The position numbers and the translations under genes were made by a program. DNA of 46,006 nt from Richelia sp. SL_2_1 (GTDB lineage Bacteria; Cyanobacteriota; Cyanobacteriia; Cyanobacteriales; Nostocaceae): assembly GCA_012033205.1 (NCBI GenBank), contig JAAUSO010000039.1, positions 1-46,006 on the forward strand. The letters run 5' to 3'. Shown piece after piece: positions 18,479-45,888 of the stretch. The notes beneath the pieces are model-generated. The model was given only the letters and a program-made list of their open reading frames with translations. It was not told the DNA's origin and ran no database searches. How positions within the stretch are numbered: the first letter of the stretch is position 1; every line of letters starts with the position of its first letter.

Positions 18479-18479
18479 A

Positions 18480-19676: not shown

Positions 19677-19769
19677 GTGATGTCTAATTGGCTGATGCTC
19701 AAGGTAAAATGCACCCATTATATTCAGTCTATTTAGTCAATAGTTGGTGTAGGAAACTATTAAGATAAA

Positions 19770-20761: not shown

Positions 20762-20893
20762 AAAGAAACTCCTAATTGAGATTTTTCGCTTGCGCGCAAT
20801 CACACAACTAACAGAATCTCCGTATTAGGTTAAAAATAAGTTATTGTTTTTACACTATTACGTAAAGCTTTTCCTAAAATATGCTTGTAATTA

Positions 20894-20912
20894 TGGTTAA
20901 GTTTAGGTTAAA
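20894..20912 (-). promoter_or_regulatory. Pho box upstream of pstS
   Basis: On the minus strand the site reads TTTAACCT-AAA-CTTAACCA: two units matching the cyanobacterial Pho-box consensus YTTAAYYW with the canonical three-base spacing, about 130 bases before the GTG start. A further single unit, TTTAACCT, is at 20827-20834. SphR/PhoB-type regulators bind such repeats under phosphate limitation. The arrangement matches the site at 37488-37506. Confidence 0.8.
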
Positions 20913-23454: not shown

Positions 23455-23654
23455 GATAATCAAGTCTCCTGTTGATGAATTAGAAATGGATTTGTATGAA
23501 ATAAAGTTGGTTTACTCCCGAACCGGCAGAAGATTACCGATTAAAAAAAACCGCAGAGACGCTCTTAGCGCAGAGGAAAGAGGTTTCATAGAAATAGGTA
23601 ATTTTCCAGCGGAATAGGAGTAGTTAGATTATCAGAATTAATCTAATAGAGTAT

Positions 23655-24430: not shown

Positions 24431-24451
24431 AGGTTTAAGAGGTTTTAAAAG

Positions 24452-25603: not shown

Positions 25604-25877
25604 AATAGAATTGGTAATTGGTAATTGGTAATTGGTGATTGAGAATAATATTAATGAGTTCTGGTTATTTTTTAATTAGTCCCCCGAACCGCTTTAAGAT
25701 TACCTTTCACACATAGGGTACGGTTCATCTCTTTTTACCTCTTTTCTCTGCGTACTCTGCGCGGCAGTTGCTACAACGGAGGGAGCCTCCGCAACGCACT
25801 GCCTTGTCTCTGCGGTTTTTAAAATCAGTAATCATAAGAGCAGGAAGGGAGTAGTATTATGCAATTTACTGTAGTAT
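25604..25877. repeat. Intergenic repeats: AATTGGT heptamers and a CGCAGAG-type palindrome
   Basis: About four copies of AATTGGT occupy 25609-25640. Further on, 25740-25820 contains the arms of a common cyanobacterial repeat (TCTCTGCG ... CGCAGTT, CTCCGTTG-type), also seen at 23548-23580, 27887-27915 and 32997-33030. No gene seen. Confidence 0.6.
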
Positions 25878-26756: not shown

Positions 26757-26822
26757 TTATTGAAAATAATAAGTTTTACTGTGAAGTAATCGTGAAATAT
26801 TTCTGGATTTTGTTGGTTAAGT

Positions 26823-27839: not shown

Positions 27840-27872
27840 TTGGTGTTAATCCTTGATGGTTTTTTTAAGTGG

Positions 27873-29225
27873 TTAAAGATTATTAATAAACCGCAGAGAC
27901 GCTGAGAGCGCTGAGGAAAGAAGTAAGGAGGTAAAAGCAGTTTGAATCAGGGGATTATTTGATGATTTAGATTGCTTTTTTTCCGAGATAATTTGTGTAA
28001 ATAGTTGAGAATAACGTTTTGCTTGTAGTTCGAGAGTGAATTCTCGTTGTGCTTTTTCTCGTGCGTAGAAAGATAGTTTTTCGTGTCTTTGAGTGTTTTC
28101 TAAAACCCAAATAATTCCTTGAGCAAAATCATCGACATCGTAAGGTTTGGCTAAATAACCACATTGTTGATGGTCGATTATATCTTTTAAACCAGTTGCG
28201 TTAAATGCTACTACCGGAGTTCCACAAGCGAGGGATTCGGAGGCAGTTTGTCCGAAGGATTCTTGTAGAGATGGAACTAGCATTACATCGGCAGCGGAAT
28301 AAACAGCAGCTAAAGATGTATCATCATATAAATGTCCTAAGTAATAAGTTTTGAATCCTAATTCTGGTGGATTTTCTGGTTGAGCAGCACCAAAAATTAC
28401 TACTTCAGTGTTATCTTTCAAAGCAGATTGACTGAGTTTTTGTAAGGCTGGTTGTAATAAATGAAATCCTTTATTTTTATCGCTGGTTGCTTCTAATGCT
28501 CCGAATAAAATTAGTTTTTTATCTTGAGGTAAATTGAGAATTTCGCGAGCTATATTTTGGGGAATGGGTCGATATTTTTGAGTGTTCAATCCATGAGGAA
28601 TTACTTCTATTCGTGAGTTTTTAAATAAGGAGCTAGATTTAGCACATTCACCTATCCAATTACTAGGAGCAATTAAGGTTAGGTTTAGGTTGCTTAAGGC
28701 TTTAACTTTACGATTGTGTACCCAACGAGATAAATCGCGTTCGCGATTGCTACTGAGTTGCGGGCAAGCACCACAAGATTGGGTATAGCGTTGACAATCT
28801 CTAGCAACGTGACAACCTCCAGTAAATACCCACATATCATGAAGTGTCCATACTAAAGGCTGTTTGAGTTTTGCAATGGATTCTATTTGCATAAAAGCTC
28901 CACTAATCCAATGCAAATTAATAATATCTGGGTTAATTTTATTGACTTGGGGAACAACTCTATCTGGTAACCATTGACTAAAAAATGTACTTTTGGTTCT
29001 ATTTTTATAAAGCTTCAAAGGTAAAGTCTCAAATGTCAATTTGGTTTTAGCTATACCTTGAAATAATCGGATTTTTGGCGCAATTACTGTTTTATCACTA
29101 CTCGATTTTTCTTGCACTAACATTTGTGAATCTAGTCCAATATGTTGTAATCCTTTATGTAATCGATATGCAGCCCTAGCAGCACCACCGCTAATATCAT
29201 GAGTACTTAAATGTAAGATTTTCAT
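27873..29225 (-). CDS. GT4 family glycosyltransferase
   Basis: A 450-residue retaining GT-B enzyme. It starts KILHLSTHDISGGAARAAYR, a typical GT4 entry with the Gly-Gly-Ala acceptor loop. WTLHDMWVFTGGCHVARDC and the CGACP cluster follow. The C-terminal donor domain has VEVIPHGLNTQKYRPI-like sequence, then PSLQESFGQTASESLACGTPVVAF with the E-x7-E pair, and GYLAKPYDVDDF. The last 35 residues run into a CGCAGAGACGC-type repeat and look non-homologous, so the native end may be near KKQSK. Confidence 0.88.
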   Translation of the reverse strand: MKILHLSTHDISGGAARAAYRLHKGLQHIGLDSQMLVQEKSSSDKTVIAPKIRLFQGIAKTKLTFETLPLKLYKNRTKSTFFSQWLPDRVVPQVNKINPDIINLHWISGAFMQIESIAKLKQPLVWTLHDMWVFTGGCHVARDCQRYTQSCGACPQLSSNRERDLSRWVHNRKVKALSNLNLTLIAPSNWIGECAKSSSLFKNSRIEVIPHGLNTQKYRPIPQNIAREILNLPQDKKLILFGALEATSDKNKGFHLLQPALQKLSQSALKDNTEVVIFGAAQPENPPELGFKTYYLGHLYDDTSLAAVYSAADVMLVPSLQESFGQTASESLACGTPVVAFNATGLKDIIDHQQCGYLAKPYDVDDFAQGIIWVLENTQRHEKLSFYAREKAQREFTLELQAKRYSQLFTQIISEKKQSKSSNNPLIQTAFTSLLLSSALSASLRFINNL

Positions 29226-29271
29226 TGATGATTTATTTCTCTATTTTAATTCTCTAAATAATTAATTAGTA

Positions 29272-30513
29272 TTAAGCTTGCGCCAAATTGAGTAATCTTC
29301 TTCTAACTCTGTGATATTCCATCGTTAAAGTTAGAGAAGTTGTCAAATACATAAACCAATTCCAGCTAGGAGTTAATAATCTAGCTTCAGAAATATTCAC
29401 GATAATAATGATGACAAGCATTTGCATTGGTAAATAATCTTCAGGTTTTTTCGCAACTAATACAACTCGATAAAGTGCCATAGTAAAGAAGCGAATAAAA
29501 CCGATAATAAAAATTAAGAATCCACCAATTCCTACATCTAACATTATCTCCAAAAAGCCATTATGAGAATTACTTGCCCATTCGTAAGTTAATCTGGTAT
29601 TAGAAGCGAATGGACTAGTCCAAAATCCAGCGTATCCGTAGCCAAATAAAGGTCTTTTGAGAATTTGCTTTAATACAGGTTCCCATAAGTCTGTACGTCC
29701 ATTTAAAGTCAGGTCTTTACCTGATGTACCAACTATAGTTTCTGCGTTACCTGCAATTAATATTAAACCGCTAACTAATAATATTAAAACAAAACTAATG
29801 GCAATTATTTGTAATTTATAGTTATTGTTTGTACTAAGTTTATATAAAGGTAAAAGACATATCATTGTGATCACAATCATTAAAGAAGTTGTGGAACGAG
29901 AGAGAATAATTAAACAAATAGATAATGCAAATATTGTTAATCTCAGCCAGCGAAATCGAGATTCACTCAAAGCTAAATGTAAAAATATTCCTGCACTCCA
30001 AGCCATCATGTATCCCAATTCATTTTTATGACCAAAAATTCCAGCCCACATTCCAGGCAATTCTGGTGTTGTATGAATTCCTCCAAAACTTGGGATTAAG
30101 GGAAAAATTATTGATAAAATTGTTGTTGTTCCCAATGCAAAAGCGATGAATCTAATTTGTTCTTTGAAGCTATAGCGCATCGCTAAATAAATTGCCAGAA
30201 AATATATTCTAATTAAACCTCGGATGTATGTTAAACTCGAAGCCATATCTGCTGACCATAATACAGAAAATAGAATTAATATTAATAGTAATAATTGAAA
30301 TACACCTTTGCTACCAACATATATAAATCCTTTCCAATAGTTTGCAATTAAAACAGATAATATTAAATATGATATAGCATTTAATAATTTATCTATAATT
30401 GCACCACCTAAAGGATTTTCGGAAATTTCATGAACTGGTTTAATCGCTAAAGCACCTACAGTAATCAGTATTAGTAAAAGAGTGGCAAGTTTTTCAATCC
30501 GCTCAATTTTCAT
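29272..30513 (-). CDS. O-antigen ligase/polymerase (Wzy-like)
   Basis: A 413-residue membrane protein with about ten hydrophobic segments. The Wzy_C-type region holds GRTDLWEPVLKQILKRPLFG, then YGYAGFW and WASNSHNGFLEIMLDVGIGG, with the conserved His in the large periplasmic loop. It probably polymerises or transfers the lipid-linked repeat units made by the glycosyltransferases around it. Polymerase and ligase cannot be told apart from sequence; a Wzx-type flippase and a Wzc-like kinase in the same cluster favour polymerase. Confidence 0.85.
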   Translation of the reverse strand: MKIERIEKLATLLLILITVGALAIKPVHEISENPLGGAIIDKLLNAISYLILSVLIANYWKGFIYVGSKGVFQLLLLILILFSVLWSADMASSLTYIRGLIRIYFLAIYLAMRYSFKEQIRFIAFALGTTTILSIIFPLIPSFGGIHTTPELPGMWAGIFGHKNELGYMMAWSAGIFLHLALSESRFRWLRLTIFALSICLIILSRSTTSLMIVITMICLLPLYKLSTNNNYKLQIIAISFVLILLVSGLILIAGNAETIVGTSGKDLTLNGRTDLWEPVLKQILKRPLFGYGYAGFWTSPFASNTRLTYEWASNSHNGFLEIMLDVGIGGFLIFIIGFIRFFTMALYRVVLVAKKPEDYLPMQMLVIIIIVNISEARLLTPSWNWFMYLTTSLTLTMEYHRVRRRLLNLAQA

Positions 30514-30563
30514 TTTTTACCTCAATAAACTACTCTCTATTCCCTATTCCCTATTCCCTATAT

Positions 30564-31507
30564 TTACGAATGCATAATTAATTTTTTATCCTGAAGTATT
30601 TTCTTCAAATTTTGTTTAAAAATATCTATCCGACTTGCATGATATACAGTATATTGAATAAACTTGTCTGCTTGTAAGTTTTTTACTATATAAGGTGGAT
30701 GTATAATCGGAAATTTCATTTCTTCTGTAGGAAGATTGATAAATGAAAAGTTTTGAGAAGAATTAAAATTTGTTGAATCCTCACCAACACCAACATTACT
30801 AATTAAATTGACATTAGGAATAATATTTAATCCACCCTGCATCCAGCAAGCAAATGTCCATTGATAATCCCAAGTGATACCTGTAGGATTTTCATAAATA
30901 GAATCAAATATATTTTGCCAATAACTTACTGCTTTAGAATTGGGAAGAATGTTCTCTAAAATATTTGATTGTTTAATTTCTTGCCATAATTTAATATGTA
31001 AATCATAATGTTGCCAAGCACGTCTCCAACTTGCCCATCCCCAACAGTGACTGTAGGATGAAAAATAATAGCTATAATCGGTACGTTTTCTTCCTAATTG
31101 GGCATTTTGAGCAGCAATAGAAGTAATTCTACTATCGTATCGATATTTTTCTAGTAATTCTTCACAAAACCGGAAAATGTGATATTCGGGATACAATCAT
31201 CTTCTAAAATAATTGTTTCTTCTACATTATTAAATACCCAATCTAAACCACTAGAAACTCTTTTTGCACAGCCTAAATTCACTTCAGAGTAATTTTTAAT
31301 AACTTCACAATCCCAATCAACTTGTTCGATAATTGCCCGTGTTGCAGCGCATTTTTCCGCTTCACCTTCGCGGTCATGTCGAGGTCCATCGGCAATCACA
31401 AATAGCTTTTTAGGTTTAACTTGACGAATAAGTTCAAATACTTTAATGGTTGTATGTGGACGCTTGAAAATAATAAAAGTAATTGGTGTTTCTAGTTGTT
31501 TGCTCAT
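30564..31507 (-). CDS. GT2-like glycosyltransferase, frameshifted
   Basis: Reconstructed length 314 residues from ATG 31507, which has GGAG nine bases upstream (a TTG at 31522 is less likely). The first part has ITFIIFKRPHTTIKVFELI and ends IILEDDCIPNITF, where the frame breaks in the A run at 31174-31177. One extra base continues as FFRFCEELLEKYRYDSRI and joins the second part, with the characteristic SYSHCWGWASWRRAWQ. This matches the HlpA-like GT2 branch. As written, two overlapping open frames (31151-31522 and 30564-31196) encode the halves. Confidence 0.82.
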
Positions 31508-31628
31508 GATTATGTTCTCCAATTTATGATAGTTTTAATTTTATTTTGATATACGAGAATAATAAATACAAATAATATGTTGGAAAATGCAATTCAAAAT
31601 GAGTTTTTTTAAAAGATTTTTTTATTGA

Positions 31629-32954
31629 TTAATATTTATAAAAAGGCAAAAAAGACTGTATTTGAATGTGAAATAATTTGCGCGTTCTTTTATCTACAGC
31701 ATTACTCAAAAAAGCTGCTATAGCTTGAGATGAAATAGTTGCGATCGCGGCACCAAGTCCGGAATATTCAGGTATTAGTAAAAAGTTGAGAATGACATTA
31801 AGAATTGCTCCGAGTAAAGTTTTACCTAAAGAAACATGATTTAATCCTTCAGCGATAAACCAAGGTGATGTTGCTACACCCATAAACACAAATAAAGAAG
31901 CCCAAATATGCACTGCTAAAATTGCTCCAGCCTCTACATATCCACTACCAAATATCATCAAAACGATATCTTTGGAAAAGAATGTCATAGGAATAGAAAT
32001 TGCTAGGGAGATATACGTTAATAAGCGTAATAACTGTCCGATTCGTTTATAGTAATGATGCTCTGATTTCTCTTTAGCTGCATAAATTGCCGGAGCAACA
32101 GAAGAAACAATCGTAGTCGGAATAAAATACCATAATTCAGAAACACGTACAGCCGCAGAGTAAATACCAACTTCGTTATTACCCTTCATTTGACCTAACA
32201 TTATCTGGTCAATTTTCATAAAAATCAAAATAGCAAATCCCGAAAAAATTAACGGAAAACTTTCTTTAAGCAACTTTTTTGCAGTTGTAAAATTCCATTT
32301 CCAATTCCATAATTTAGAAAATCCTTTAAAGTGGTAAATACCAATTAAACCAATGGCACTCATGACAATTTCAGCTAATGTCACCCAAGCAAATGCTAAT
32401 AACGGTGCTTTAACTAAAATTAAACCCACTTTCAACAAAATACTTAATAAATAGGTGATATTTTTCGCAATCACGCTGTACTTTGATTGCACCTGCGACT
32501 GAAACCATAAATCAATAGTATCAGCAGAGCGAAAAATTCCGGTTATGGCTAATATTGTCACTAGCCATATTGTTAATGGTTTATTTCCTTCTAAGAATAA
32601 AATACTACCTACTACTAATAAAACCGAAACAATTCCACCTATTAACTTTAAAGCAAAAGTAGTTCCTAAAATTTCTGATTTATCTGATGATTCTCGTACT
32701 AAATGACGCACTACTACATCATCTAAACCCAAGGTAAAAACTGGTGTAAATAAACTGACAAAAGCCAACCCATAATTAAAAAGTCCATATTGCTGAGTCC
32801 CCAAATAACGCGCTACCCATACTCCCACAAACAAACCTCCACCCATCCGCAAAACGCGATCGCAAAATAACCATCCAGTATTACTAACAATTGCTCGTAG
32901 TTTTGAATCAGATTTAAAATATGATAGATTTTTAACTTTTAAGTTTCTCAGCAT
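31629..32954 (-). CDS. Polysaccharide flippase (Wzx/MATE-like)
   Basis: A 441-residue membrane protein with 12 or more hydrophobic segments. The N terminus, VSNTGWLFCDRVLRMGGGLFVGVWVARYLGT split over two helices, and the following QYGLFNYGLAFVSLF are typical of the polysaccharide transporter family. It would move lipid-linked repeat units across the plasma membrane. Its position between glycosyltransferases and downstream of the Wzc-like gene supports a Wzx/Wzy assembly route. Confidence 0.9.
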   Translation of the reverse strand: MLRNLKVKNLSYFKSDSKLRAIVSNTGWLFCDRVLRMGGGLFVGVWVARYLGTQQYGLFNYGLAFVSLFTPVFTLGLDDVVVRHLVRESSDKSEILGTTFALKLIGGIVSVLLVVGSILFLEGNKPLTIWLVTILAITGIFRSADTIDLWFQSQVQSKYSVIAKNITYLLSILLKVGLILVKAPLLAFAWVTLAEIVMSAIGLIGIYHFKGFSKLWNWKWNFTTAKKLLKESFPLIFSGFAILIFMKIDQIMLGQMKGNNEVGIYSAAVRVSELWYFIPTTIVSSVAPAIYAAKEKSEHHYYKRIGQLLRLLTYISLAISIPMTFFSKDIVLMIFGSGYVEAGAILAVHIWASLFVFMGVATSPWFIAEGLNHVSLGKTLLGAILNVILNFLLIPEYSGLGAAIATISSQAIAAFLSNAVDKRTRKLFHIQIQSFLPFYKY

Positions 32955-33068
32955 TAATAAATAAAACTCTTATTTACTCAACATTTATCTTTGTGTAACT
33001 CTGCGCTTTCCTCTGCGTGCCTTTGCGTTCAAAAATATTATTTATTACTTATTTATTTAACTTTCCAG

Positions 33069-33982
33069 TCAAAAAAAATTTAAATAATATCCAAACAACA
33101 ATAATACTCCTTTAATTTTCCAATAAAAATTTGGCTCTAATAAACAGATAATTTTCAGATATAATTGAAAATCTTTATTTGTAGGACAAGGAATAGTTTT
33201 TAACTCATTTAGTGATGTGTAAGCTAAAAATAAAGGTAAACTTAAACTATTTTTTGCATAATATAATTCATAATTGCCGAACGCTTTAACAATCTCTTAT
33301 ATTCAAAACTGATATTTATCTCTAAAGATTTATCATTGTGGTAATTATTATGTTTATGTATTCTATACATAACCAAACATTGAGACATATAAAACTTTTT
33401 CGCTCCCACTAAAGAAGCTCCCCATATTAAACAATCATCAGAACGAACCCTCCAATCATCCGTATATGGAATCGGCAAAATTTTATTTACGATTTCTCGA
33501 CGCATCGATAATGTAGAAGTAATAGAACCAATCCATTCTCCAAGACAATATGTTTTAATTACGGAATAACCCAAATCTAAATCATATGCATATTCTTGAA
33601 ATACCCCTTCTGCTACTCCAAATTTTTTATACCCACAAAACAGAAAATCGCATTCTTGATAGCGTCGATAAAAATTCAGCGCATTTTCTAAATATTCCGG
33701 TTCATACATATCATCCGCATCGAGAAAAAAGATAATATCTCCATTTGCAGCTAAAAACCCTTCATTAAATGAAGATAATTGTCCTTGATTTTTTTCCTTC
33801 AATATATATTTAATATTTGCTTCTCCATCAAACTTCTTAATTACTTCTGCTGAATTATCCGTAGATGCATCATCGACAATGATAATTTCATCAAACTTTA
33901 CGCTTTGTTTTAACACACTGTTAATAGCATCAGGTAGAAAAGTAGCGTAATTATAATTATTAATTAAACAAGTTGTTTTCAT
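33069..33982 (-). CDS. GT2 family glycosyltransferase, frameshifted near the C terminus
   Basis: CLINNYNYATFLPDAINSVL, then IIIVDDASTDNS and IFFLDADDMYEPEY are classical GT2 motifs with the DxD at about 90-92. The frame as written stops at 33242 after YIMQKIV. One extra base in the T run at 33250-33255 turns this into MQKNSLSLPLFLAYTSLNE and keeps the frame open to TGA at 33069, giving 304 residues. The ATG overlaps the upstream Wzc-like stop by four bases (ATGA), so they are translationally coupled. Confidence 0.85.
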
Positions 33983-36243
33983 GATTTTTCTCCTTGAGAC
34001 TCAGAAACTTCACTTTTTGGAATTTTCTTGAACATAGTTTGTTTAATTGGTGAAAACTCATTCGGACTTGTTACCGACTCTATCGCTTCCTTGGTGTAAT
34101 ACAAATAGCTATTCGGTTCATTTTTCACATTCAAACCATTAACAACTATCCCTAAAACTTTCTGATTTGACTGAGTTAAATATTCCTTCGCTGCATTTGC
34201 ACTGTCTAAATCGACAACACCAGGACGAACTACTAGTAAAATACCATCAGTCAAGTCACTTAATATTGCTGCATCCGCCGTTCCAACTACCGCTGGAGTA
34301 TCAAAAATGACAAAATCATATTTTTGCGTAAAATTATCCAATAATGTTGCCATTCGCTGAGAATCAAGCAGAGCAATGGGATTAGGAGGTACAACCCCAG
34401 AACAAAGTACATCTAAATTAGGTAATACCTCTTGTACAGCAGCATTAAGATTCAATCGATCAATAATTACATTACTTAAACCCACCGCATTAGTTAATCC
34501 CCAAGTATGATGCTGGATGGGGTGACGCATATCTGCATCCACTAGCAATACCCGTCTTCCCGTGCTAGCCATTGCTACAGCCAGATTTGCTGCAACTTCC
34601 GATTTTCCTTCTTTGCTAACAGAACTTGTGACAACTATACTTTTTAACTGAGTATCCGAGCAGAGGAATTTTAAATTAGCTTGTAATATTTGATAAGCAT
34701 TGCCTACGGGAAATTCCGGAATATCTCTACCGATAATTTGAGGAATAGGTCTGTTAACCCCAGCAACAGAAGAACTATGTTTGCTATGCTTACCCACTGC
34801 GGGAATCACTCCGAGCAATGTATATTTAAGAACTGCTCTGGCTTCTTTAACTGTCTTAACAGAGCGGTCTATTAAGTCTAAACCAAAGGCTGCCATCAGA
34901 CCTAATAAGACACCCGCAGCAGCTCCACCGACGATAAATAGCATCTTTCGCGGTCCCTGGGGTACATCAGGTACTAAAGCTGCGGAAATAATCCTGGCAT
35001 TGGGAATCTTTTGATTTTCTGCGACATTAATTTCTTGAATTTTCGTCAACAGTGTCTCATAAGTCGATTGTGCTGCTTTGAGTCTACGTTCTAATTCACG
35101 CTGGATTTGTTCTAATTGCGGTAGATAATCCGCTCGTTGTTTATACACAGAAAATTTGTTAGACAGCGAGATAATTTGTTGTTCCAAGCCAACACGCTCT
35201 GCTTCCACACGGGTAATCTCTGCAATCAAACCTTGTCTGAGTTCTCCTAATTGTAAATTTCCCTGTTGAACTTGCTGTTTATTCCCCGCAATTTCCGTTG
35301 TTCTTTGATTGAGTAGATTTCTTAAGGCTGCAACTTTTTCTTCCCAACTCACAACACTAGGGTGTCGCGATTGAAAACGAGTTTTCTCTAACGCTAATTG
35401 ACTTTCTGCTTCCTGTAACTGAGCAAGTACTTTTTGTACTCCTGGTGTTTGACTCAACTGTGCAGATATCACAGCTTGTTGTGGTTCCACCTGAGCTTCA
35501 GCCCGTAAAGTTGCTAAACGTGCAGTTATATTCGCTAATTGAGCTTGAGTTTGAGATATTTGTTCTTCTAACTTATTAATTGTTCCAACTGCTGCATTCG
35601 CTTCTTCATCTAAAGCAATGATTCGATGTTGTTCTTTAAATCGTCGCAGTTCTAATTCTGCTTTTTTCACCGATGATTCTGCTTTTGGTAATTGCTCTAA
35701 AAGAAACTTACGTGCAGTTTGTGCTTCTCCTTGATTGGCTAAAACATTTTGCTGAATATACTTATCGATAACTGTATTAACAATGTTAGCTGCTTTTTCA
35801 GGATTTGGATCGGTATAAGAAATCAATAAAACATCACTACCTTTAATTCCTTCAACATACAATTGCCCAGCTAAAGTAGAAACTGGCAACATTTCACCCT
35901 TTTCATCTCTAAGATTTAGTGCGGTAATTGTTTCTTGAAGTACAGGATTTGATGTAACAATACGTGTCTGAGTATCTAAAGGATTATTATTTTGAGTTAA
36001 TGCTTCCAAGCGTCCTAAATCTTCCGATACTCCCGTTAGAGAAGAAGTCCGATTACTCTTAATCATTACACTTCCTTCTGCTCTATAGGTAGGTTTGAGG
36101 GAAAGTGCATATAATGTTGCTCCCGTCACCGTTAGCGCACAAACCCCCAAAGCAGGCAACCACCGACGTTTGAGAACCTGGAAATATTTTTGAATATCTA
36201 TTTCTTCAATTTTTTCAATATTGTCTAAAGTTTCCATTGTCAT
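33979..36243 (-). CDS. Wzc-like polysaccharide co-polymerase and tyrosine autokinase
   Basis: About 754 residues from ATG 36243. The N-terminal Wzz domain begins IDIQKYFQVLKRRWLPALG and has a membrane segment near 27-45. A long coiled coil (about 190-400) follows, then a second membrane segment (MLFIVGGAAAGVLLGLMAAF). The cytoplasmic BY-kinase domain has a Walker A-like VTSSVSKEGKSEVAANLAVA. Walker A' is VLLVDADMRHP, and Walker B is VIFDTPAV. Walker A has GKSE instead of the usual GKST. Only a short tyrosine cluster, YLYY, lies near the C terminus. It controls chain length and export of the polymer. It is the first gene of the cluster. Confidence 0.92.
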   Translation of the reverse strand: MTMETLDNIEKIEEIDIQKYFQVLKRRWLPALGVCALTVTGATLYALSLKPTYRAEGSVMIKSNRTSSLTGVSEDLGRLEALTQNNNPLDTQTRIVTSNPVLQETITALNLRDEKGEMLPVSTLAGQLYVEGIKGSDVLLISYTDPNPEKAANIVNTVIDKYIQQNVLANQGEAQTARKFLLEQLPKAESSVKKAELELRRFKEQHRIIALDEEANAAVGTINKLEEQISQTQAQLANITARLATLRAEAQVEPQQAVISAQLSQTPGVQKVLAQLQEAESQLALEKTRFQSRHPSVVSWEEKVAALRNLLNQRTTEIAGNKQQVQQGNLQLGELRQGLIAEITRVEAERVGLEQQIISLSNKFSVYKQRADYLPQLEQIQRELERRLKAAQSTYETLLTKIQEINVAENQKIPNARIISAALVPDVPQGPRKMLFIVGGAAAGVLLGLMAAFGLDLIDRSVKTVKEARAVLKYTLLGVIPAVGKHSKHSSSVAGVNRPIPQIIGRDIPEFPVGNAYQILQANLKFLCSDTQLKSIVVTSSVSKEGKSEVAANLAVAMASTGRRVLLVDADMRHPIQHHTWGLTNAVGLSNVIIDRLNLNAAVQEVLPNLDVLCSGVVPPNPIALLDSQRMATLLDNFTQKYDFVIFDTPAVVGTADAAILSDLTDGILLVVRPGVVDLDSANAAKEYLTQSNQKVLGIVVNGLNVKNEPNSYLYYTKEAIESVTSPNEFSPIKQTMFKKIPKSEVSESQGEKS

Positions 36244-37487
36244 AGCTACAAACAATCTATAATAATCTTGAAAATTGATATAATTGACAGCGCAAAATCA
36301 GAGGTTTTAGATGTACATTGCAATCAATGCACGTCCATTTAAACCGACATTTATCATTAAAATACTGTAAATAAATCTACCTAAAGCAGACTCTATAAAG
36401 ACATGATATAAACTACCTCAATCCAACTATAAAATCATCAATTAAAGTCTTTTGCTACAGAACTTTTTTGATAGAATTGATTAACAACTGCTGGAAAATG
36501 CAAAGCCTAATGCTAATGGATAAAACTTAGATGCTGTTGCTAATTAATCTTTCACACTGTTAAAACTAACAGATTACTTGGCTAATTGACATTACCGAAA
36601 ACTGCAATAATAAAGTTCCACCCAGGTGGTAGAGTCGCTTTTCAAAAACCAAACTTACTCATTAATTTTCATAGCTTATTCACGAGCTTTTAGAGGATGT
36701 TTTGAAAGTCGAATTTAATACTTTACCTGGCGACTAGAAGTCGCGCTGCCTTGGCTACACAAACAAAGTCCACCTGCATGGACTAGTTAATTTAGAACCC
36801 GCGTAGGCGGGTTTTGTTTATGTAGTAGCGGTTTAAACGCCGGATACTTTTAAACATCCAATAGCAGCAATTCAACTTGAATTAAACTACTTTATCAAAA
36901 ATTTATACATATCTCTATATAACGCAGACTTATTTTTTGCAGACAAAATTTTGAAACCTTTGATAGCTCTTTGATGGAGAATTTTAGTTTATTTAATTTA
37001 TAGAAATAAAAATTTATAATGTAAGTTTCCTTACATTTAAATAAAAATAAATCTTCGATTAATGTATCGGGTTGTTTAACATGACTTTCTTCATATCTTG
37101 CACCATAGAAACCTATCGTTAAAATAACTACTAATTGTTTGACTTCGTTTTTACCCGCCTGAGACTGTAAGTCCCAGTCTGATAGCATAAGTCCATTTTA
37201 ATGAGGAACTAAAATATTACCGTTTTACATTAGTTGTATTTTTATTGATAGTATTACAAAAAAATGCCTTACTTAAAAATTTATTTTATAAATAATCTGA
37301 AATTTACTAACATGAAATATCAAAACATTCTGGTTTTTCTATGAATCATTCACAATGTTATTAACAGCATATTAAATGCTTGTTTTTCTTTCAATATCTA
37401 TCTAATTAATTTCTGAAATACAAAGTCAAAAAAAATTGGTATTATCTAAACTGTCAAGCGAAAAAATAACATTTGAACTATGCTTTG
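36244..37487. other. Long intergenic region between the EPS cluster and the nuclease locus
   Basis: Mostly AT-rich non-coding DNA. It should contain the promoter of the Wzc-like operon near 36244-36700, not resolved. It also holds the dispersed repeat at 36730-36813. An open frame at 36895-37188 (minus) is AT-rich, has no family resemblance and no evident ribosome site; I do not call it a gene. Confidence 0.5.
36730..36813. repeat. Triple-hairpin dispersed repeat
   Basis: Three hairpins in a row: GCGACT/AGTCGC (36730-36735 with 36739-36744), AGTCCA/TGGACT (36767-36772 with 36779-36784), and AACCCGC/GCGGGTT (36796-36802 with 36807-36813), the last followed by a T-rich stretch. The middle hairpin and its flanks match the 3' end of the PstB-like gene at 21972-21989, showing a multi-copy mobile repeat. 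Confidence 0.8.
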
Positions 37488-37506
37488 TTTAACCAAAACT
37501 TAACCT
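37488..37506 (+). promoter_or_regulatory. Pho box upstream of the nuclease/5'-nucleotidase gene
   Basis: TTTAACCA-AAA-CTTAACCT: two octamers fitting YTTAAYYW with a three-base spacer, built exactly like the pstS box (octamer-AAA-octamer). It lies about 550 bases before the large gene and about 150 bases before the small frame at 37659. This implies a long leader if it drives the large gene. Confidence 0.7.
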
Positions 37507-37658
37507 GAAATGGTTGATTTTTTAATGCACTTTTCTTAGCATTTGAAGTGTAAGTATTAACATTTACACGAGTCTATTGATTAACTCAGGAAAAACTCTG
37601 ACAAGAAATTCTGAACTAAAAATAAATGCTTCAACTAGTTAATTAGCAAACAAATTCT

Positions 37659-37805
37659 ATGGCTCAGACAACTGGAATCGTGCGTGCTGGACTTGTGATC
37701 AACAAGGTTTTGATTAACTCAAATAAATTAGCAACGGATGTAAACCAGGATACTGGTAATAATGCGGGTGATATGAAAAAATACTCGAGCAAAATAGATT
37801 TTTAA
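37659..37805 (+). CDS. Possible small protein, 48 residues
   Basis: An ATG-initiated frame beginning MAQTTGIVRAGLVINKVLIN and ending in charged residues (KKYSSKIDF). I do not recognise it. It lies between the Pho box and the large extracellular enzyme gene, on the same strand. The ribosome site is poor. It could be the remnant of a longer gene, a leader peptide or chance. Confidence 0.3.
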   Translation: MAQTTGIVRAGLVINKVLINSNKLATDVNQDTGNNAGDMKKYSSKIDF

Positions 37806-38055
37806 TTCAGAAAATACGGATACCAATTCTAGTTAATTCTGAGATGGTAGTAGCGAGAAAATCAGACATATATATTTGAGTAATTTTTCATAACGAGAGA
37901 GTTTTCTTAATTGAGCAAATTACTCTGCAACTAGTTTGATTTATATCTATTTGAATGAATCAATTTAGTTGGGTGATTTGGAAATTTTGGTTTGTAGAAA
38001 AATCAAATCATACTAACTTGAAAATTCTGTATTTTTGATTCATAGGAGCATTTGA

Positions 38056-39387
38056 GTGGCTGACATATTTATTTCTGAGTACATTGAAGGTAGTAGTAAT
38101 AATAAAGCGATAGAACTCTATAATCCAACAGATTCAGTAGTTGATTTAGCCGCTGATAATTACACCATTGAACTTTACAGCAACGGAGCTTCATCTCCAA
38201 GTCAAAGTTTATCTTTAACAGGTACCATTGCGAGTAAAGATGTTTTTGTAATTACTCGTTCTAATGCTGACGAAGCGATTAAAACAGTTGCTGATATCAC
38301 CAATGCTGATTCAGTAATCAATTTTAATGGTGACGATGCAATTGTAATTAAGAAAAATGGTGCCGTTATTGATGTAATTGGACAAGTTGGTTTCGATCCT
38401 GGTAGTGAGTGGGGTAGTGGGGATACTTCTACTGCAAACAACACTATTCGTAGAAAACTAACTATTACATCAGGTGATACTAATCCTGATGATGCTTTTG
38501 ATCCTTCAGTAGAATGGGATGGTTTTCCTCAGGACACATTTAATGGATTGGGTTCTGATAATTCTGATGATAACGACAACAATGGTGGTTCTAGTGTCAA
38601 AATCTATGACATCCAAGGTGCTGCTCACACTTCACCACTTGTAGGTCAATCTGTAACTACCACTGGTATTGTTACCGCAATAGATACTAACGGTTTTTAT
38701 CTCCAAGATGCTACAGGAGATGGAAATAATGCAACTTCCGACGCTATATTCGTATTTACTAGTTCTGCTCCTACCGTCACAGTTGGTGATGATGTAGAAG
38801 TTAGCGGTACAGTTAGCGAGTTTTTCCCTGGTGGTGCTAGCACTGGTAATCTTTCCACAACTCAAATTGGTGGAAGTCCTACTGTTAGTGTAAAATCTAG
38901 CGGAAATGCCCTTCCTACAGCAACAATTATCGGTGCAGGTGGGAGAATTCCTCCAACTGAAAATATTGATGATGATGCTTTCACAAGTTTCGATCCCGAT
39001 ACTGACGGAATTGATTTTTTCGAGTCGTTAGAAGCAATGCTGGTGACAGCTAAAGATGCTGTTGCTGTTTCTGGTACTAACGGTTTTAGGGAAATTTTCA
39101 CAGTTGTCGATGATGGTACGGGTGCTACAGGAATTAGCGATCGCGGTACACTCAATATCAGCCCCGATGATTTTAATCCCGAAAGAGTCCAAATTGATGA
39201 AGATACGGGGATTTTACCAGGTTTTACTCTTCCTCAAGTAAATGTGGGAGCAAGTTTAGGAGATGTTACGGGAGTTATTTCCTACGACTTCGGTAATTTT
39301 CAGATTCAACCGACACAAGCATTTACTGTTACTCCTGCAACTATCCAACCAAAAACCACAACTATCGAAGGTGCGCTCCGATTTTAG
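38056..39387 (+). CDS. N-terminal part of an ExeM/NucH-type extracellular nuclease
   Basis: 443 residues starting at a GTG with AGGAG seven bases before it. A lamin-tail domain covers about 1-150 (ADIFISEYIEGSSNNKAIELYN is its opening; FNGDDAIVIKKNGAVIDVIG is inside). An OB-fold-like domain (about 180-440) begins IYDIQGAAHTSPLVGQSV and ends GVISYDFGNFQIQPT. This is the usual architecture of ExeM/NucH nucleases before their endonuclease/exonuclease/phosphatase domain. The frame stops at a TAG just where that domain should start; the remainder continues in another frame in the next entry. There is no N-terminal signal peptide, as in other cyanobacterial exoproteins of this type. Confidence 0.85.
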   Translation: MADIFISEYIEGSSNNKAIELYNPTDSVVDLAADNYTIELYSNGASSPSQSLSLTGTIASKDVFVITRSNADEAIKTVADITNADSVINFNGDDAIVIKKNGAVIDVIGQVGFDPGSEWGSGDTSTANNTIRRKLTITSGDTNPDDAFDPSVEWDGFPQDTFNGLGSDNSDDNDNNGGSSVKIYDIQGAAHTSPLVGQSVTTTGIVTAIDTNGFYLQDATGDGNNATSDAIFVFTSSAPTVTVGDDVEVSGTVSEFFPGGASTGNLSTTQIGGSPTVSVKSSGNALPTATIIGAGGRIPPTENIDDDAFTSFDPDTDGIDFFESLEAMLVTAKDAVAVSGTNGFREIFTVVDDGTGATGISDRGTLNISPDDFNPERVQIDEDTGILPGFTLPQVNVGASLGDVTGVISYDFGNFQIQPTQAFTVTPATIQPKTTTIEGALRF

Positions 39388-42300
39388 GTGTAGAGCAACC
39401 TTTTGAAGCACGTCAAGAAGAAGTAGCAGTTAATGGTAGTCTTGATGAACGTCAAGCCCAAGCGCAAGCTGTTAAAGGTTATGTTGATGGAATTTTAGCA
39501 GCAGACGCAAACGCTAATATCGTTGTAGTCGGTGACTTGAACGAGTTTGAGTTTGTTTCTCCTGTAGAAACCTTGGCAGAGAGCTTGACAAACTTAACAG
39601 AAACTGTTCCAGAAAACGAACGTTACAGTTTTATCTTCCAAGGTAATTCCCAATCCTTAGATCATATTTTAGTTAGTAAAAATTTCGCTGGTAATGCGAA
39701 GTTTGATATCGTACACGTAAACTCTGAATTTGCGGAAACTACTCAAAGAGCTAGTGACCATGACCCATTAGTTGCAAGTTTAACAATTCCTAAAAACATG
39801 GACATCCCAAAAATTAATCTCAGTAAAATCAGTACTTTTACTGGCAATGGTGCAGAAATTGTTGCCCATGACCCTACAACCCAACGCTTGTTTGTAACTA
39901 CTGGGGATACTGTAGAAATTATTGATATTAGTAACCCAGCAAATCCTACAAAGTTTGGTGAAATTGATATCACATTGATTGGTGGTGGTGTTAATAGCGT
40001 TGCTGTTAAGAACGGTATCGTAGCTGTAGCAGTTGAAGCCAATACCCCGCAAGACCCTGGTTTAGTTGCGTTTTACAACACCGACGGTGTATTCCAACGT
40101 TCCGTTGTAGTTGGTGCGCTTCCGGATATGCTCACCTTTACTCCTGATGGTACCAAAATCTTGGTTGCTAACGAAGGTGAACCCAATGAAGATTATACTG
40201 TTGACCCAGAAGGTTCTATCAGTATCATTGATATCTCTGGTGGTGTTGCGGCTTTAGACCAAACCAAAGTTAAAACTGCGAATTTCAGAGCATTTAACAG
40301 CCAAAAGCAAGCGTTAATTGATAGTGGAGTCCGCATTTTTGGACCTGGTGCAACAGTTGCTCAAGATTTAGAACCAGAATATATTGCAGTATCTGCCGAT
40401 GGTAGCAAAGCATTTGTAACTTTGCAGGAAAATAACGCGATCGCTGTTTTTGATATCGCAACTGCAACGGTAACAGATGTTTTACCTTTAGGTTATAAAG
40501 ACCACAGCTTACCAGGAAATGGTCTAGATGCTAGCGATCGCGATGTTGATGGCAGCAGTGGTGGTGGTGGTAAAATTAACATCCAAAACTGGCCCATCTT
40601 CGGGATGTACCAACCAGATAGTATTGCTTCCTTTGAAGCTGATGGCAAAACTTACTACCTCACCGCGAATGAAGGGGATGCACGCATCCGTCCCGATGGA
40701 AATATTGAAGATGACCAAGGTAATGTAATTTTAAAAGATGGTTCGGTCTTCAACGAAGAAACACGAATCAACGACGTTGAACTTGACCCAACTGTTTTCC
40801 CCAACGCTGAAGAACTCCAGGAAAATGAAAATTTGGGTCGTTTAAACATCACCAACACCCTGGGAGATACAGATGGTGATGGCGACTACGATAAATTGTA
40901 TGCCTATGGCAGTCGTTCGTTTTCTATTTGGGATAGCAGCGGTAAGTTAGTTTTTGACAGTGGAGACCAACTAGAAACGATTACCGCAGAACAAACACCA
41001 ACACTGTTTAATGCTGATTTTGATGACGAAGTATTAGACGCAAATGGAAACTTAGACTTCAGCGATACAAGTCCAAGCTTTAAGAAAGACAATCGTTCCG
41101 ACAACAAAGGACCAGAACCCGAAGCTGCAACCGTTGGTGTAATTAACGGTAAAACCTACGGATTCATCGGTTTAGAACGTGCTGGTGGTGGTGTGATGGT
41201 TTACGACCTCAGCAACCCCACAGCACCGGAATTTGTCCAGTACATTCGTACCGAAGGTGATATTTCTCCTGAAGGATTTAAGTTTATCTCCGCTGCGGAA
41301 AGTCCTAATGGAAACCCCGTGTTAGCGGTTGCGAACGAAGTCAGTGGAACTACTACGCTTTATAATATTGACGTTCCACCAACAATTACTAATTACACCT
41401 TCAACAACCTACCTAAATTAGGTACAACCTCAACCAACCAAGATATTTTCTTGGGTGGTTTTTCCGGTTTATATTTCCAAGGGCTTGCTGAAAACGGTAA
41501 TCTGAAATTTGTCACCAATACTGACAGAGGACCAAATGGAGAAGCAACTGATAGTAAAAGACCATTCCTTTTACCTAGTTTCCAACCAGAGATAGTTAGT
41601 TTTGAGCTTGATCGTTCCACTGGAAACATTAGTATTACCAACAGAACTGGTTTATTCCGTGAGGATGGAACCACTCCTTTAACTGGTTTACCCAACTTAC
41701 AAACTGGAGTCCAAAATACAGCTTATACTGATGAAATTGGTGTTGATTTAGACGGTAATACTCTACCCAACGACACCTTGGGAGCAGATTTAGAAGGGAT
41801 TGTAGTTGCTCCAGATGGTAGTTATTGGATGGTTGATGAATACCGTCCAGCGATTTACCACTTTGACAATAATGGTAAATTAATTGACCGCTTTATTCCC
41901 GAAGGTAGTCCTACTGACTCCAGCCAAAATGGCGGAACTTCCTTTGGAACCCCAGTTTTACCCGCTGTTTATGCCCAAAGACGCGCCAATCGTGGTTTTG
42001 AAGCGGTGGCTTTGGAAGGAAATAAACTTTACGCATTTATCCAAAGTGCGATCGATAATCCAGATAACAGTGGTGATACAGCATCAAGAGGTTCTCGTAA
42101 CCTGAGAATCTTAGAATTTGATGTTACTAGCAAACAGGTGACTGGAGAGTATTTATATTTACTTGATGATATTACAGGTAGTGGAACCGCTAAAACAGAT
42201 AAAATCGGGGATGCGGTTTCCTTGGGTAATGGTAAATTTGCGGTTGTGGAGCGAGATGACTTGTCTACCACTGCTTCCAACAAGTTGATTTACCAAATTG

Positions 42301-45107
42301 ACTTAGCACGAGCAACCAATATTAATAACCCTGCTAACTTTACCCTACCAGCGGGTAAAACCATCGAACAATTAACTCCTGAAGAATTAACCACAGCAAA
42401 TATCAAGCCTGCTACTAAGAGCTTAATCGCTAATGCGGCGGAATTTGGTTATACCGGAGTGGAAAAACTAGAAGGTTTAGCTTTAGTTGCACCCAATACC
42501 CTCGCCTTAATCAACGATAATGACTTTAATGTTGCTGGAACTAACATCCCCGAACAACTGGGTATTTTAGAATTACCCAAAGCTTTAGAGTTACCAGTTA
42601 ACAATCAAAGATTCACCCTACAACTACTCCACGCCGCAGATCAAGAAGCCGGAGTTCCCGCACTCGATGATGCACCCCGTTTCAGTGCTGTATTGAATGC
42701 GTTGAAAAACCAAGATGCCGATAGCGATGGTAAGGTAGACTACGAAAATACGGTAATATTGTCCTCCGGTGACGCTTATATCCCCGGTTTATTCTTTGAT
42801 GCATCAAAAGACCCCTCACTTGCTCTTTTGTTAGGTAAAGAAGGTGCTGGACGAGCTGATATTGTTATTCAAAACGAACTTGGTTTCCAAGCGATCGCCT
42901 TTGGTAATCACGAGTTTGATTTCGGTACCGCTCAGATTAAATCGCTACTTGCTCCCGATGGTGCTTATCCCGGTGCAAAGTTCCCCTATTTAAGTTCCAA
43001 CCTCGACTTTACCAATAACGCGGACTTAAAAGATTTAGTTGCTGCTGATGGTCAAGAAGCCAGCAGCATCCCCGGTAAAATTGCCAAGAGTACCGTAGTT
43101 ACCGTCAATGGTGAGAAAATTGGTGTAGTTGGTGCGACTACTCCTACATTACCAAGAATTTCTTCTCCTGGAACCGTTGGTGTTCTGCCCGCAGACTCTA
43201 CCGACATCCCGGCTTTAGCTGCGGAAATTCAAAAGTCAGTAGATGCGCTCCTTGCAGCTAACCCCGATATCAATAAAGTTGTCTTGCTTGCTCATATGCA
43301 GCAGATTGCGATCGAGCAGGAATTGGCTGGTTTGCTCAAAAATGTAGATATCATCATGGCTGGTGGTTCCAACACTCGCTTGTTGGACGAAACCGACCGT
43401 TTACGTGCGGGTGATACCAAGCAAGGTGAATACCCAATTTTCAAAAAATCAGCCAGCGGTGAAGATGTAGCGATAATTAACACCGACGGTAACTATAAAT
43501 ATGTCGGTCGCTTGATAGTAGATTTTGATGCTCAAGGTAGAATAATTCCTGAGAGCATTAATCCTAATGTCAGCGGTGCTTATGCTACTGACGAGCAGGG
43601 TGTAAAGGATTTAAACGCTGAGAATTTGGTAGACCCAGAAATTAAAGCAATTACCGATGCTTTACAAGAAGTCATCAAGAAACAAGATGGTAACGTCTTG
43701 GGTATTACCGATGTCTTCCTCAACGGTACTCGCTCTGATGTCCGGACTCAAGAAACCAACTTGGGTAACTTAACTGCTGATGCAAACCTCAATTATGTTA
43801 AAGGTTTAGATTCCACTGTCGCTGTTTCGATTAAAAACGGTGGTGGTATCCGCAACAATATTGGACGCATCTTCACACCTCCTGGTGCTACTGAATCCCA
43901 AAAACTACCCCCCGAAGGAAACGATTTATCTGGTAAACCAGACGGTGGTATTTCTCAACCAGATGCTCAAAATGCGCTGTCATTTAACAACGCTTTGAGT
44001 CTTGTTACCTTAACAGCAACACAGTTAAAAGCAATCCTCGAACACGGTGTAGCAAAAGTAGCACCAGGTGCAACCCCCGGTCAATTCCCGCAAATTGGTG
44101 GTATTTCCTTTAGCTTTGACGCAACCCAACCCGCAGGAGAACGCATTCAAAGCGCTGCGATTCTCAACGATGATGGTAGTGTTAAAGAAGCTTTGGTGAG
44201 AAACGGTGAAGTAGTCGGAGATGCAAACCGGGGGATTCGGATTACCACTTTGAGTTTCTTAGCTAATGGTGGTGATGATTATCCGTTTCCAGATTTTGTG
44301 AAAGCAAATCCCACCTTTGCTAATCGAGTTGATTTACTTGGGGAAATAATTGAGGGAATTAGTGAAGACCGTAACCTCAATGGTAAAATCGATGGACCTG
44401 TTGACCCCACTTTATTCGATCCCGGTAAATCCAATTTTGCCAACTCCGGAAGCGAACAAGATGCATTTGCTGAGTATCTTCTAGCTAACTTTAATACTCC
44501 TGAAACAGCGTTTAAAGTTGCTGATGTTCCACCAGCGCAAGATACAAGAATTCAAAATCTAGCTTTCCGTGAGGATACGGTATTAGAAAGTTTCGTGGAG
44601 GTTATAGAAAATACTTCTGTTACAACTCTTGACGATGGAACTGAAGTTGAATTCATTGACTTAAGAACTTTAACTGGTCAAACAACAATAAACTTCACCA
44701 TTAGTAGAGAAGCTGACTTCAATAATGAAGTTTACTTCTACGCAGTTGATGATATTACTGGTACTGTTGGCGGCGTAAAAGTAGGTGATGCTGGTTATGT
44801 GACAGCGGCTTTAAACAACCGCGTTTCTCCTGTCTTTTCCACCAGCGATGACAATACAGAAACCGGAAGCGCTCAATTTACGGCAGGTTCCATAGTGGTT
44901 CCTATAATTATTGCTGACGGTACTTTAGCTGAAGCTATCAGCGGTGCGGCTGAAGTTTATTTCCCATACTTGGGTGCTAATACCGATAGCAAAACCTTCG
45001 ACCACATTCAGTTCGTTGGTGATAACACTTTCGGTTTTGAAGATTTACCTAACGGTGGTGATAGAGACTTCAACGATATCGTTATTAAGATTGAGAGTAT
45101 TGCTTAA
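39375..45107 (+). CDS. C-terminal part: nuclease remnant, phytase-like esterase and 5'-nucleotidase
   Basis: The open frame begins APILGVEQPFEARQEEVA, with no good start codon; the first usable one is TTG 39537 (numbering below from it). Domains: the C-terminal half of the EEP nuclease (VVVGDLNEFEF, SLDHILVS, ASDHDPLVASL); a choice-of-anchor I beta-propeller (about 85-610, with SPEGFKFISAAESPNG); a phytase-like esterase (about 615-1020, TDRGPNGE, LGADLEGIVVAPDGSYW); and a 5'-nucleotidase (about 1021-1600). The latter has the metallophosphatase motif AFGNHEFDFG and the C-terminal nucleotide domain ETNLGNLTADANL. The metal ligands are partly altered (HAADQE, GGSNTR). A DUF4114-like end reads PNGGDRDFNDIVIKI. 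It was presumably continuous with the 38056-39387 part. Confidence 0.85.
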   Translation, partial: APILGVEQPFEARQEEVAVNGSLDERQAQAQAVKGYVDGILAADANANIVVVGDLNEFEFVSPVETLAESLTNLTETVPENERYSFIFQGNSQSLDHILVSKNFAGNAKFDIVHVNSEFAETTQRASDHDPLVASLTIPKNMDIPKINLSKISTFTGNGAEIVAHDPTTQRLFVTTGDTVEIIDISNPANPTKFGEIDITLIGGGVNSVAVKNGIVAVAVEANTPQDPGLVAFYNTDGVFQRSVVVGALPDMLTFTPDGTKILVANEGEPNEDYTVDPEGSISIIDISGGVAALDQTKVKTANFRAFNSQKQALIDSGVRIFGPGATVAQDLEPEYIAVSADGSKAFVTLQENNAIAVFDIATATVTDVLPLGYKDHSLPGNGLDASDRDVDGSSGGGGKINIQNWPIFGMYQPDSIASFEADGKTYYLTANEGDARIRPDGNIEDDQGNVILKDGSVFNEETRINDVELDPTVFPNAEELQENENLGRLNITNTLGDTDGDGDYDKLYAYGSRSFSIWDSSGKLVFDSGDQLETITAEQTPTLFNADFDDEVLDANGNLDFSDTSPSFKKDNRSDNKGPEPEAATVGVINGKTYGFIGLERAGGGVMVYDLSNPTAPEFVQYIRTEGDISPEGFKFISAAESPNGNPVLAVANEVSGTTTLYNIDVPPTITNYTFNNLPKLGTTSTNQDIFLGGFSGLYFQGLAENGNLKFVTNTDRGPNGEATDSKRPFLLPSFQPEIVSFELDRSTGNISITNRTGLFREDGTTPLTGLPNLQTGVQNTAYTDEIGVDLDGNTLPNDTLGADLEGIVVAPDGSYWMVDEYRPAIYHFDNNGKLIDRFIPEGSPTDSSQNGGTSFGTPVLPAVYAQRRANRGFEAVALEGNKLYAFIQSAIDNPDNSGDTASRGSRNLRILEFDVTSKQVTGEYLYLLDDITGSGTAKTDKIGDAVSLGNGKFAVVERDDLSTTASNKLIYQIDLARATNINNPANFTLPAGKTIEQLTPEELTTANIKPATKSLIANAAEFGYTGVEKLEGLALVAPNTLALINDNDFNVAGTNIPEQLGILELPKALELPVNNQRFTLQLLHAADQEAGVPALDDAPRFSAVLNALKNQDADSDGKVDYENTVILSSGDAYIPGLFFDASKDPSLALLLGKEGAGRADIVIQNELGFQAIAFGNHEFDFGTAQIKSLLAPDGAYPGAKFPYLSSNLDFTNNADLKDLVAADGQEASSIPGKIAKSTVVTVNGEKIGVVGATTPTLPRISSPGTVGVLPADSTDIPALAAEIQKSVDALLAANPDINKVVLLAHMQQIAIEQELAGLLKNVDIIMAGGSNTRLLDETDRLRAGDTKQGEYPIFKKSASGEDVAIINTDGNYKYVGRLIVDFDAQGRIIPESINPNVSGAYATDEQGVKDLNAENLVDPEIKAITDALQEVIKKQDGNVLGITDVFLNGTRSDVRTQETNLGNLTADANLNYVKGLDSTVAVSIKNGGGIRNNIGRIFTPPGATESQKLPPEGNDLSGKPDGGISQPDAQNALSFNNALSLVTLTATQLKAILEHGVAKVAPGATPGQFPQIGGISFSFDATQPAGERIQSAAILNDDGSVKEALVRNGEVVGDANRGIRITTLSFLANGGDDYPFPDFVKANPTFANRVDLLGEIIEGISEDRNLNGKIDGPVDPTLFDPGKSNFANSGSEQDAFAEYLLANFNTPETAFKVADVPPAQDTRIQNLAFREDTVLESFVEVIENTSVTTLDDGTEVEFIDLRTLTGQTTINFTISREADFNNEVYFYAVDDITGTVGGVKVGDAGYVTAALNNRVSPVFSTSDDNTETGSAQFTAGSIVVPIIIADGTLAEAISGAAEVYFPYLGANTDSKTFDHIQFVGDNTFGFEDLPNGGDRDFNDIVIKIESIA

Positions 45108-45554: not shown

Positions 45555-45777
45555 TTTTTTATCATTTTGAAATCACATCAAAATAAATTATTTCTTAACC
45601 TAAAAATTAAATAATTCTAAATAGTGATTCACTATATTTTAGTAATTTGATTATTGCTGATAAACTGCGATTGCAACTGCTCGATCATACTGGAAATTAC
45701 TCTTCAGTTTTTCTAAGGCTTTGAATACTGCCAGAGCAAAGGTTGATTTTATAAGAGAGGAGAATAGAACTAATTTC

Positions 45778-45888
45778 ATGGCTAATACTCCATTTGACAC
45801 GCAAGAACAGGCGCAGCTAAAGGGTATCAACGGATACAGCACTGACCCCATTGTTACCATCGGCGAAACTATTAATGATTACACGTAA
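45778..45888 (+). pseudogene. Fragment resembling the N terminus of a PhoX/DUF839 phosphatase
   Basis: An ATG with a GAGAGGAG site upstream encodes 36 residues. STDPIVTIGETINDYT resembles the conserved entry of cyanobacterial PhoX-like (DUF839) alkaline phosphatases, where a Pro-Pro-Gly-Ile-Leu-Asp-Gly segment usually follows. Here an in-frame TAA occurs at that point. The same frame is open again from 45889 to a TGA at 45994-45996, with no recognisable similarity. The window ends at 46006. It may be a decayed gene or a recombined 5' end. One Pho-box octamer, CTTAACCT, lies at 45594-45601. The family call is from memory and tentative. Confidence 0.35.

Follow-up and report, generated by a model that had tools for sequence, protein, structure and literature searches.

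A probable nucH-phoA-type fusion locus behind a Pho box in Richelia sp. SL_2_1, with a 490-bp deletion in its nuclease domain

Organisation of the locus and domain content

The window analysed here is the whole 46,006-nt stretch of contig JAAUSO010000039.1 from Richelia sp. SL_2_1 (assembly GCA_012033205.1; genome G000), and the subject is its region 37488-45107, in which domains resembling an ExeM/NucH-type nuclease and a PhoA-type phosphatase lie behind a Pho-box pair. A sequence-only reading had taken this region for a single gene encoding a megaprotein of about 2,300 residues. Instead, it is occupied by two frames, open reading frame (ORF) A at 38056-39387 and ORF B, stop-free over 39297-45104, and has a 490-bp gap at 39373 relative to the two closest relatives, Rivularia sp. 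T60_A2020_040 (L008) and Plectonema cf. radiosum LEGE 06105 (L010). Features are on the plus strand unless marked (-).

ORF A encodes 443 amino acids, comprising a lamin tail domain, an OB region and a linker to the nuclease; its likely start, GTG 38056, has an AGGAG 7 bp upstream and lies 549 bp past the Pho-box pair. ORF B (39297-45107) is an open frame of 1,906 codons without a stop, with the first in-frame start at TTG 39537 and the first ATG at 39798. ORF A and ORF B have 91 bases in common (39297-39387).

The lamin tail domain (38059-38388; LTD at P0001 2-111, E 1.3e-14) and the OB region (38599-38955) are in ORF A. Beyond them lie the C-terminal remnant of the EEP nuclease (39374-39788), the choice-of-anchor I propeller domain, uninterrupted here (39846-41369; choice_anch_I at P0002 154-661, E 5.9e-140), a phytase-like module (41378-42611, with PF13449 at 41451-42527; P0002 689-1047, E 9.9e-54), a 5'-nucleotidase-like phosphatase domain of PhoA type (42612-44306; 5_nucleotid_C at P0002 1441-1633, E 1.1e-20) and a C-terminal DUF4114 domain (Pfam; 44877-45095; P0002 1831-1903, E 6.9e-14). 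The domain identities and their order, as given by the sequence-only reading, were upheld by the Pfam/NCBIfam search, although they are spread over two frames and the EEP domain is only partial.

NF033680 matches the ORF A product at 2-258 (E 1.4e-46), and the lamin tail and OB domains precede the nuclease domain, as in ExeM/NucH. The ExeM/NucH model NF033681 was matched in two pieces, profile positions 1-226 of 546 in ORF A and 415-544 in ORF B, scoring 57.9 and 45.9 bits, which is under the 300-bit NCBIfam cut-off; because intact relatives from three genomes also fall short (192-206 bits), this cut-off says little on family membership. The order of lamin tail, OB and EEP is common to the window gene and ExeM of Shewanella oneidensis. 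Unlike ExeM/NucH, the window gene has lost the EEP core, lacks a hydrophobic GlyGly-type C-terminus (by eye), and continues into the phosphatase domains and DUF4114.

A deletion in the nuclease domain

When the window was compared by blastn with L008 and L010, the collinear matches stopped at window position 39373 and resumed at 39373, the matching ends in L008 and L010 being 7497 and 7987. Thus, 490 bp of the EEP nuclease are absent relative to both, and the frame is shifted; the TAG ending ORF A is met only through this shift. At the junction (39372-39374), where GAAGGTG is joined to CGCTCC, base 39373 is common to both sides. The 6-bp AAGGTG is present on both sides of the gap in the relatives, yet it is not the join point. 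The sequence-only reading had allowed for a missing part: a stretch is truly absent, but the same deletion also breaks the frame.

The remnant retains the motifs GDLNE and SDHDP, and its match to Exo_endo_phos_3 is below threshold (22.6 versus 27 bits). In an alignment of 23 EEP sequences, 17 positions were near-invariant, with a polar residue in at least 22 of the 23, and 11 of these fall in the deleted stretch. Among those lost are N in SYNVLNL, E in GLQEV and N-H in NNHF, while GDFNE keeps its D and N, so the EEP domain of the window is incomplete. The predicted ligands of ExeM are E521, H642, N699, D822 and H823, and ExeM constructs without the EEP or without the YcgR-like domain were inactive (PMC6085458). 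Judging by the motifs, the lost E and H would be the counterparts of E521 and H642.

A second nuclease elsewhere in G000 was also considered and rejected, as a search of this genome (98.3% complete) gave no further ExeM/NucH match. With the EEP core deleted and no other match in the genome, the proposed mechanism, in which one secreted molecule turns DNA or RNA into nucleosides and free phosphate, cannot work as encoded in this copy.

Nuclease-phosphatase fusions in related genomes

The nuclease-propeller-phosphatase fusion is intact in five of the seven other genomes of the genus, namely G001 (2238 aa), G002 (2084 aa), G005 (2378 aa), G006 (2190 aa) and G007 (3333 aa), all ORF lengths here and in the census below being counted from stop to stop. 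In G003 it is open up to the contig end (1498 aa). A search of the whole G004 genome listed 5'-nucleotidase-type and DUF4114-type matches, while the nuclease and propeller parts drew no match. G001, G002, G004, G005 and G006 correspond to loci L010, L008, L021, L058 and L032 (the last from Calothrix parasitica NIES-267).

In Synechocystis PCC 6803, phoA-nucH is an SphR-activated operon, and NucH has already been proposed to serve the use of nucleic-acid phosphate (PMC1906773); the sequence-only reading had placed nucH beside phoA in the Synechocystis Pho regulon. The same two activities and Pho-box control are found there as two genes, whereas the genus has them in one reading frame; the window differs further in its broken nuclease and its additional phytase-like module. 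In Synechocystis salina (L026), a PhoA-like protein consists of propeller and phosphatase without a joined nuclease, and the genome gave no NucH match. The make-up of PhoA, propeller plus 5'-nucleotidase-like domain, is presumed from L026 and from the length of PhoA. Because of the intact fusions in the genus, the domain make-up of L026 and the PCC 6803 operon, we read the window gene as descended from a fusion of nucH with phoA. Searches of an open-access library gave no paper describing such a fusion, which is no proof of absence.

The combinations of modules were surveyed in 79 loci, drawn from the best 80 of 281 stretches matching P0002 and biased to its relatives. The 5'-nucleotidase-like domain is present in 76 of the 79 loci and shares one frame with the propeller in 32, only eight of which also have EEP. 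It shares a frame with EEP in 13 of the 79, and with both EEP and propeller in eight; all four modules stand in one frame in three (L019, L030 and L043). Three loci with an OB match and no EEP match at threshold (L054, L056 and L071) were scored as without EEP, and in ten others (L011-L015, L018, L046, L049, L070 and L085) the EEP ORF is separate from the 5'-nucleotidase ORF within the same fetched stretch. Thus, the joining of nuclease to phosphatase in one open frame does occur in relatives, both in the genus and in the census, and the arrangement is not the rarity implied by the description "unusual all-in-one".

Nuclease, propeller, phytase-like and PhoA-type domains are combined in one frame in L019 (Mastigocoleus, 2543 aa), L030 (Oculatella, 2312 aa), L043 (Acaryochloris, 2555 aa) and G007. 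In these four the phytase-like domain interrupts a choice-of-anchor I domain (of the two such domains in G007, the second one), whereas in the window it follows the propeller and the nuclease is broken.

Phytase-like module and mosaic structure

The stretch 41378-42611 has no counterpart in L008 and L010, which have 4 bases at the joint, and represents a net in-frame gain of 1,230 bp. In all six other fusions of the genus the 5'-nucleotidase-like domain begins at most 10 residues after the propeller, and no phytase-like module is present at the joint. The order of the window, phytase-like after propeller, was found in two census loci, L009 and L065 (in the latter after a gap of 415 residues), and EEP is directly followed by the phytase-like domain in five (L011-L015). 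In six of the 79 loci the phytase-like domain is nested inside the propeller domain: L019 (8454-11216), L024 (596-3283), L030 (7986-10613), L043 (8007-10655), L046 (10767-13505) and L058 (13219-16317). The nested insertion lies at about the same point in all six, near residue 375 of P0002. The closest phytase-like modules, those of L014, L012, L009, L011, L065, L013 and L015, are 77-85% identical to that of the window, and those of the nested type 40-51%.

In L014 (Calothrix elsteri CCALA 953), a propeller-OB ORF (6217-9708) overlaps an EEP-phytase ORF (9671-13480) in another frame, with OB cut at 80 of 119 positions, while L013 and L015 have the same parts as one ORF of 2314 aa; the L014 split is another broken copy or a sequencing error.

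The synonymous divergence (dS) between the window and L008 is 0.013 in the lamin tail, 0.19 in OB and 0.83 in the phosphatase domain. Over the 115 codons of the lamin tail (38056-38400) the nonsynonymous divergence (dN) is 0, the rest of the gene being far more diverged. The lamin tail domain was probably exchanged recently and, because dS differs so strongly between domains, the gene appears to be a mosaic made by recombination.

Phosphatase domain and downstream gene

The phosphatase domain matches the solved 5'-nucleotidases 2z1a and CD73 with E values of about 1e-30 to 1e-34, and it keeps the conserved motifs of its subfamily, D-x-Q, GD, GNHE, H-M-Q, GGSN and NGGGIR, as present in PhoA-type relatives. 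Across the 78 5'-nucleotidase-like sequences, the window counted, H, D, GD, GNH, HMQ and GGS occur in all 78 and the Q of D-x-Q in 67; L026 has the same D-x-Q/GGS pattern as the window. At the positions of D-x-Q and GGS, CD73 and UshA presumably have D-x-H and GHS. The pairing of choice-of-anchor I and 5'-nucleotidase-like domains of PhoA type is thus present, here with the phytase-like module between them. The domain named 5'-nucleotidase by the sequence-only reading resembles the cyanobacterial PhoA-type phosphatase, and a phosphomonoesterase of broader activity is likelier than a strict nucleotidase.

A gene starts after ORF B at 45736-45885, with ATG 45778, and is stopped after 36 codons, the contig ending at 46006. 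Because this truncated gene has a 72% match to an ORF of L058 and a 28-residue match to an ORF with a PhoX hit on contig C275 of G000 (L116), it probably encodes a PhoX-type phosphatase. Contig C275 itself begins with two overlapping PhoX-type ORFs, followed by the gene that comes after the fusion in L008. As it is syntenic with that region of L008, C275 probably continues the chromosome where the window contig ends.

Pho box and phosphate control

Upstream of ORF A, at 37488-37506, lies a perfect pair of 8-bp boxes with a 3-bp linker, TTTAACCA-AAA-CTTAACCT. This element, TTTAACCAAAACTTAACCT, agrees with the consensus for SphR, in which CTTAACCT recurs as 8-bp units spaced by 3 bp (PMC1906773). 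In Synechocystis at least three tandem Pho boxes are described (PMC1906773); the window has two and, two steps beyond the pair, a weaker in-phase repeat, TTTAATGC, at 37521-37528. A pst-type phosphate transport operon in the same window (16957-20803, (-); binding protein, two permeases and ATPase by Pfam) is likewise preceded by a Pho-box pair, at 20894-20912(-), which the pair ahead of the fusion gene resembles, in agreement with the earlier designation of a Pho box of pstS type.

The strict box pair was matched 14 times in the eight genomes, against two matches of the reversed control, and three times against one in G000, where two of the three pairs are those ahead of the fusion gene and the pst operon. 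Allowing one mismatch brought the strict pattern near the control in G000 (18 versus 15). A looser pattern matched twice in the window, where shuffled sequences averaged 0.09 matches; as genome-wide evidence the loose pattern was discarded as unspecific (35 matches versus 29 for the reversed pattern). At the aligned leader position a box is present in seven of the eight genomes of the genus, substituted in four of them, but the looser pattern applied to them was drawn up from the alignment itself and is no independent test. Pho control of the fusion gene is plausible.

In Nodularia spumigena CCY9414, genes for an atypical phosphatase (esterase-like activity of the phytase family) and for DUF4114 are listed in the phosphate-limitation stimulon (PMC9846622). 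There they are separate genes, whereas the window has both domains in one frame; the main text of PMC9846622 contains neither the word "nuclease" nor "nucH".

Conserved leader ORF and flanking regions

At 37659-37805, downstream of the Pho box and ahead of the fusion gene, lies a small ORF of 48 aa, MAQTTGIVRAGLVINKVL..., which was matched in seven of the eight genomes of the genus, the window counted, with lengths of 42-48 residues and the N-terminus M-(A/T/S)-(Q/H)-x-TG-(I/F/L)-VR. The G001 copy is 81% identical; in G004 neither the leader nor the small ORF was found, and the other 33 of the 41 genomes searched yielded no more than two weak matches, with E values of 0.02 and 0.08. In its own frame the ORF has a ratio of nonsynonymous to synonymous differences per site (pN/pS) of 0.55, compared with 1.06 and 0.83 for the two other frames (15 pairs of six sequences over the first 30 codons), a modest sign that it is coding.

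Upstream of these elements, about 159 bp at 36694-36852 have no match in L008 and L010, which have 31-32 bp there; by eye this stretch resembles a small repeat or mobile element. A large run of exopolysaccharide-type genes (22027-36255, (-)) separates the pst operon from the fusion locus, including glycosyltransferases and proteins of the O-antigen ligase, flippase and Wzz/kinase types (Pfam).

Interpretation

The locus is very probably a Pho-box-preceded nucH-phoA fusion that received an in-frame phytase-like module and whose nuclease was destroyed by the 490-bp deletion, ORF B being more likely a young pseudogene. According to this scheme, an ancestral fusion would have joined nucH (lamin tail, OB and EEP) to phoA (choice-of-anchor I and 5'-nucleotidase-like), with DUF4114 at the end; in this lineage the phytase-like module lies in frame between the two phoA domains, and the deletion has cost the gene the larger part of its EEP catalytic core as well as its continuous reading frame. 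In the intact relatives, the secreted protein would cut nucleic acids and strip phosphate from the products under phosphate starvation. In the window, only ORF A appears to have a well-formed start, and it would yield a catalytically dead lamin tail and OB protein, while ORF B, with the phosphatase and phytase-like domains, may at best be weakly translated from an internal start. The window copy is most likely a pseudogene or a phosphatase remnant. This reading is favoured by the lack of Shine-Dalgarno motifs at the eight ORF B starts examined and by the early stop, after 36 codons, in the neighbouring gene of probable PhoX type.

Several points weigh against this interpretation. The gap comes from a draft assembly of 359 contigs and could be an assembly error, and Pho control is a prediction from the sequence. 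In addition, ORF B has stayed open over its whole length, and its domains other than the phytase-like module have a dN/dS of 0.13-0.22 against L008 and L010. The absence of stops and these ratios fit either a recent break or continued use of ORF B.

The latter case would mean two products, the lamin tail and OB protein from ORF A and a working PhoA-phytase-like phosphatase from ORF B, translated from an internal start such as ATG 39798. This start lies at the joint of EEP and propeller, just ahead of the propeller, the checked phosphatase motifs are kept in the long open frame, and in the census it is common for a PhoA-type protein to have no nuclease fused to it. However, the eight in-frame ORF B starts listed, which reach to about 40287, all lack a Shine-Dalgarno motif, and window-specific amino-acid changes are in excess in the phosphatase domain against L010 (51 to 17); the comparison with L008 (37 to 33) shows no such excess. 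We regard two working products as possible but rather unlikely.

It is improbable that the strain has an intact fusion and that the gap is an assembly or sequencing error: the draft state of the assembly would allow it, but with a single base common to both sides of the junction, any repeat there is too short to have misled the assembly, and the genome searches gave no second copy from which a chimera could form. A single working all-in-one secreted enzyme, perhaps made by frameshifting from ORF A to ORF B within their overlap, can hardly be maintained, because the deletion explains the frame change, the relatives have one frame, no good slippery heptamer was seen in the overlap by eye (no tool scan was made), and the product would still be without a nuclease unless the deletion is an artefact.

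The window copy is itself a warning that a mechanism read from domain order needs a check of the frame. In the relatives, a known gene neighbourhood, phoA beside nucH, becomes one polypeptide, which suggests that nuclease and phosphatase act on the same substrate chain, and the shuffled versions in related genomes are natural constructs for testing the roles of the modules. Tentatively, the genus may keep, among its means of scavenging phosphate, a Pho-controlled NucH-PhoA fusion with nuclease, propeller, phytase-like and phosphatase modules reshuffled between lineages and a conserved leader ORF, from which the strain of the window would have lost the DNA-cutting activity while perhaps keeping a phosphatase that uses nucleotides released by its neighbours.

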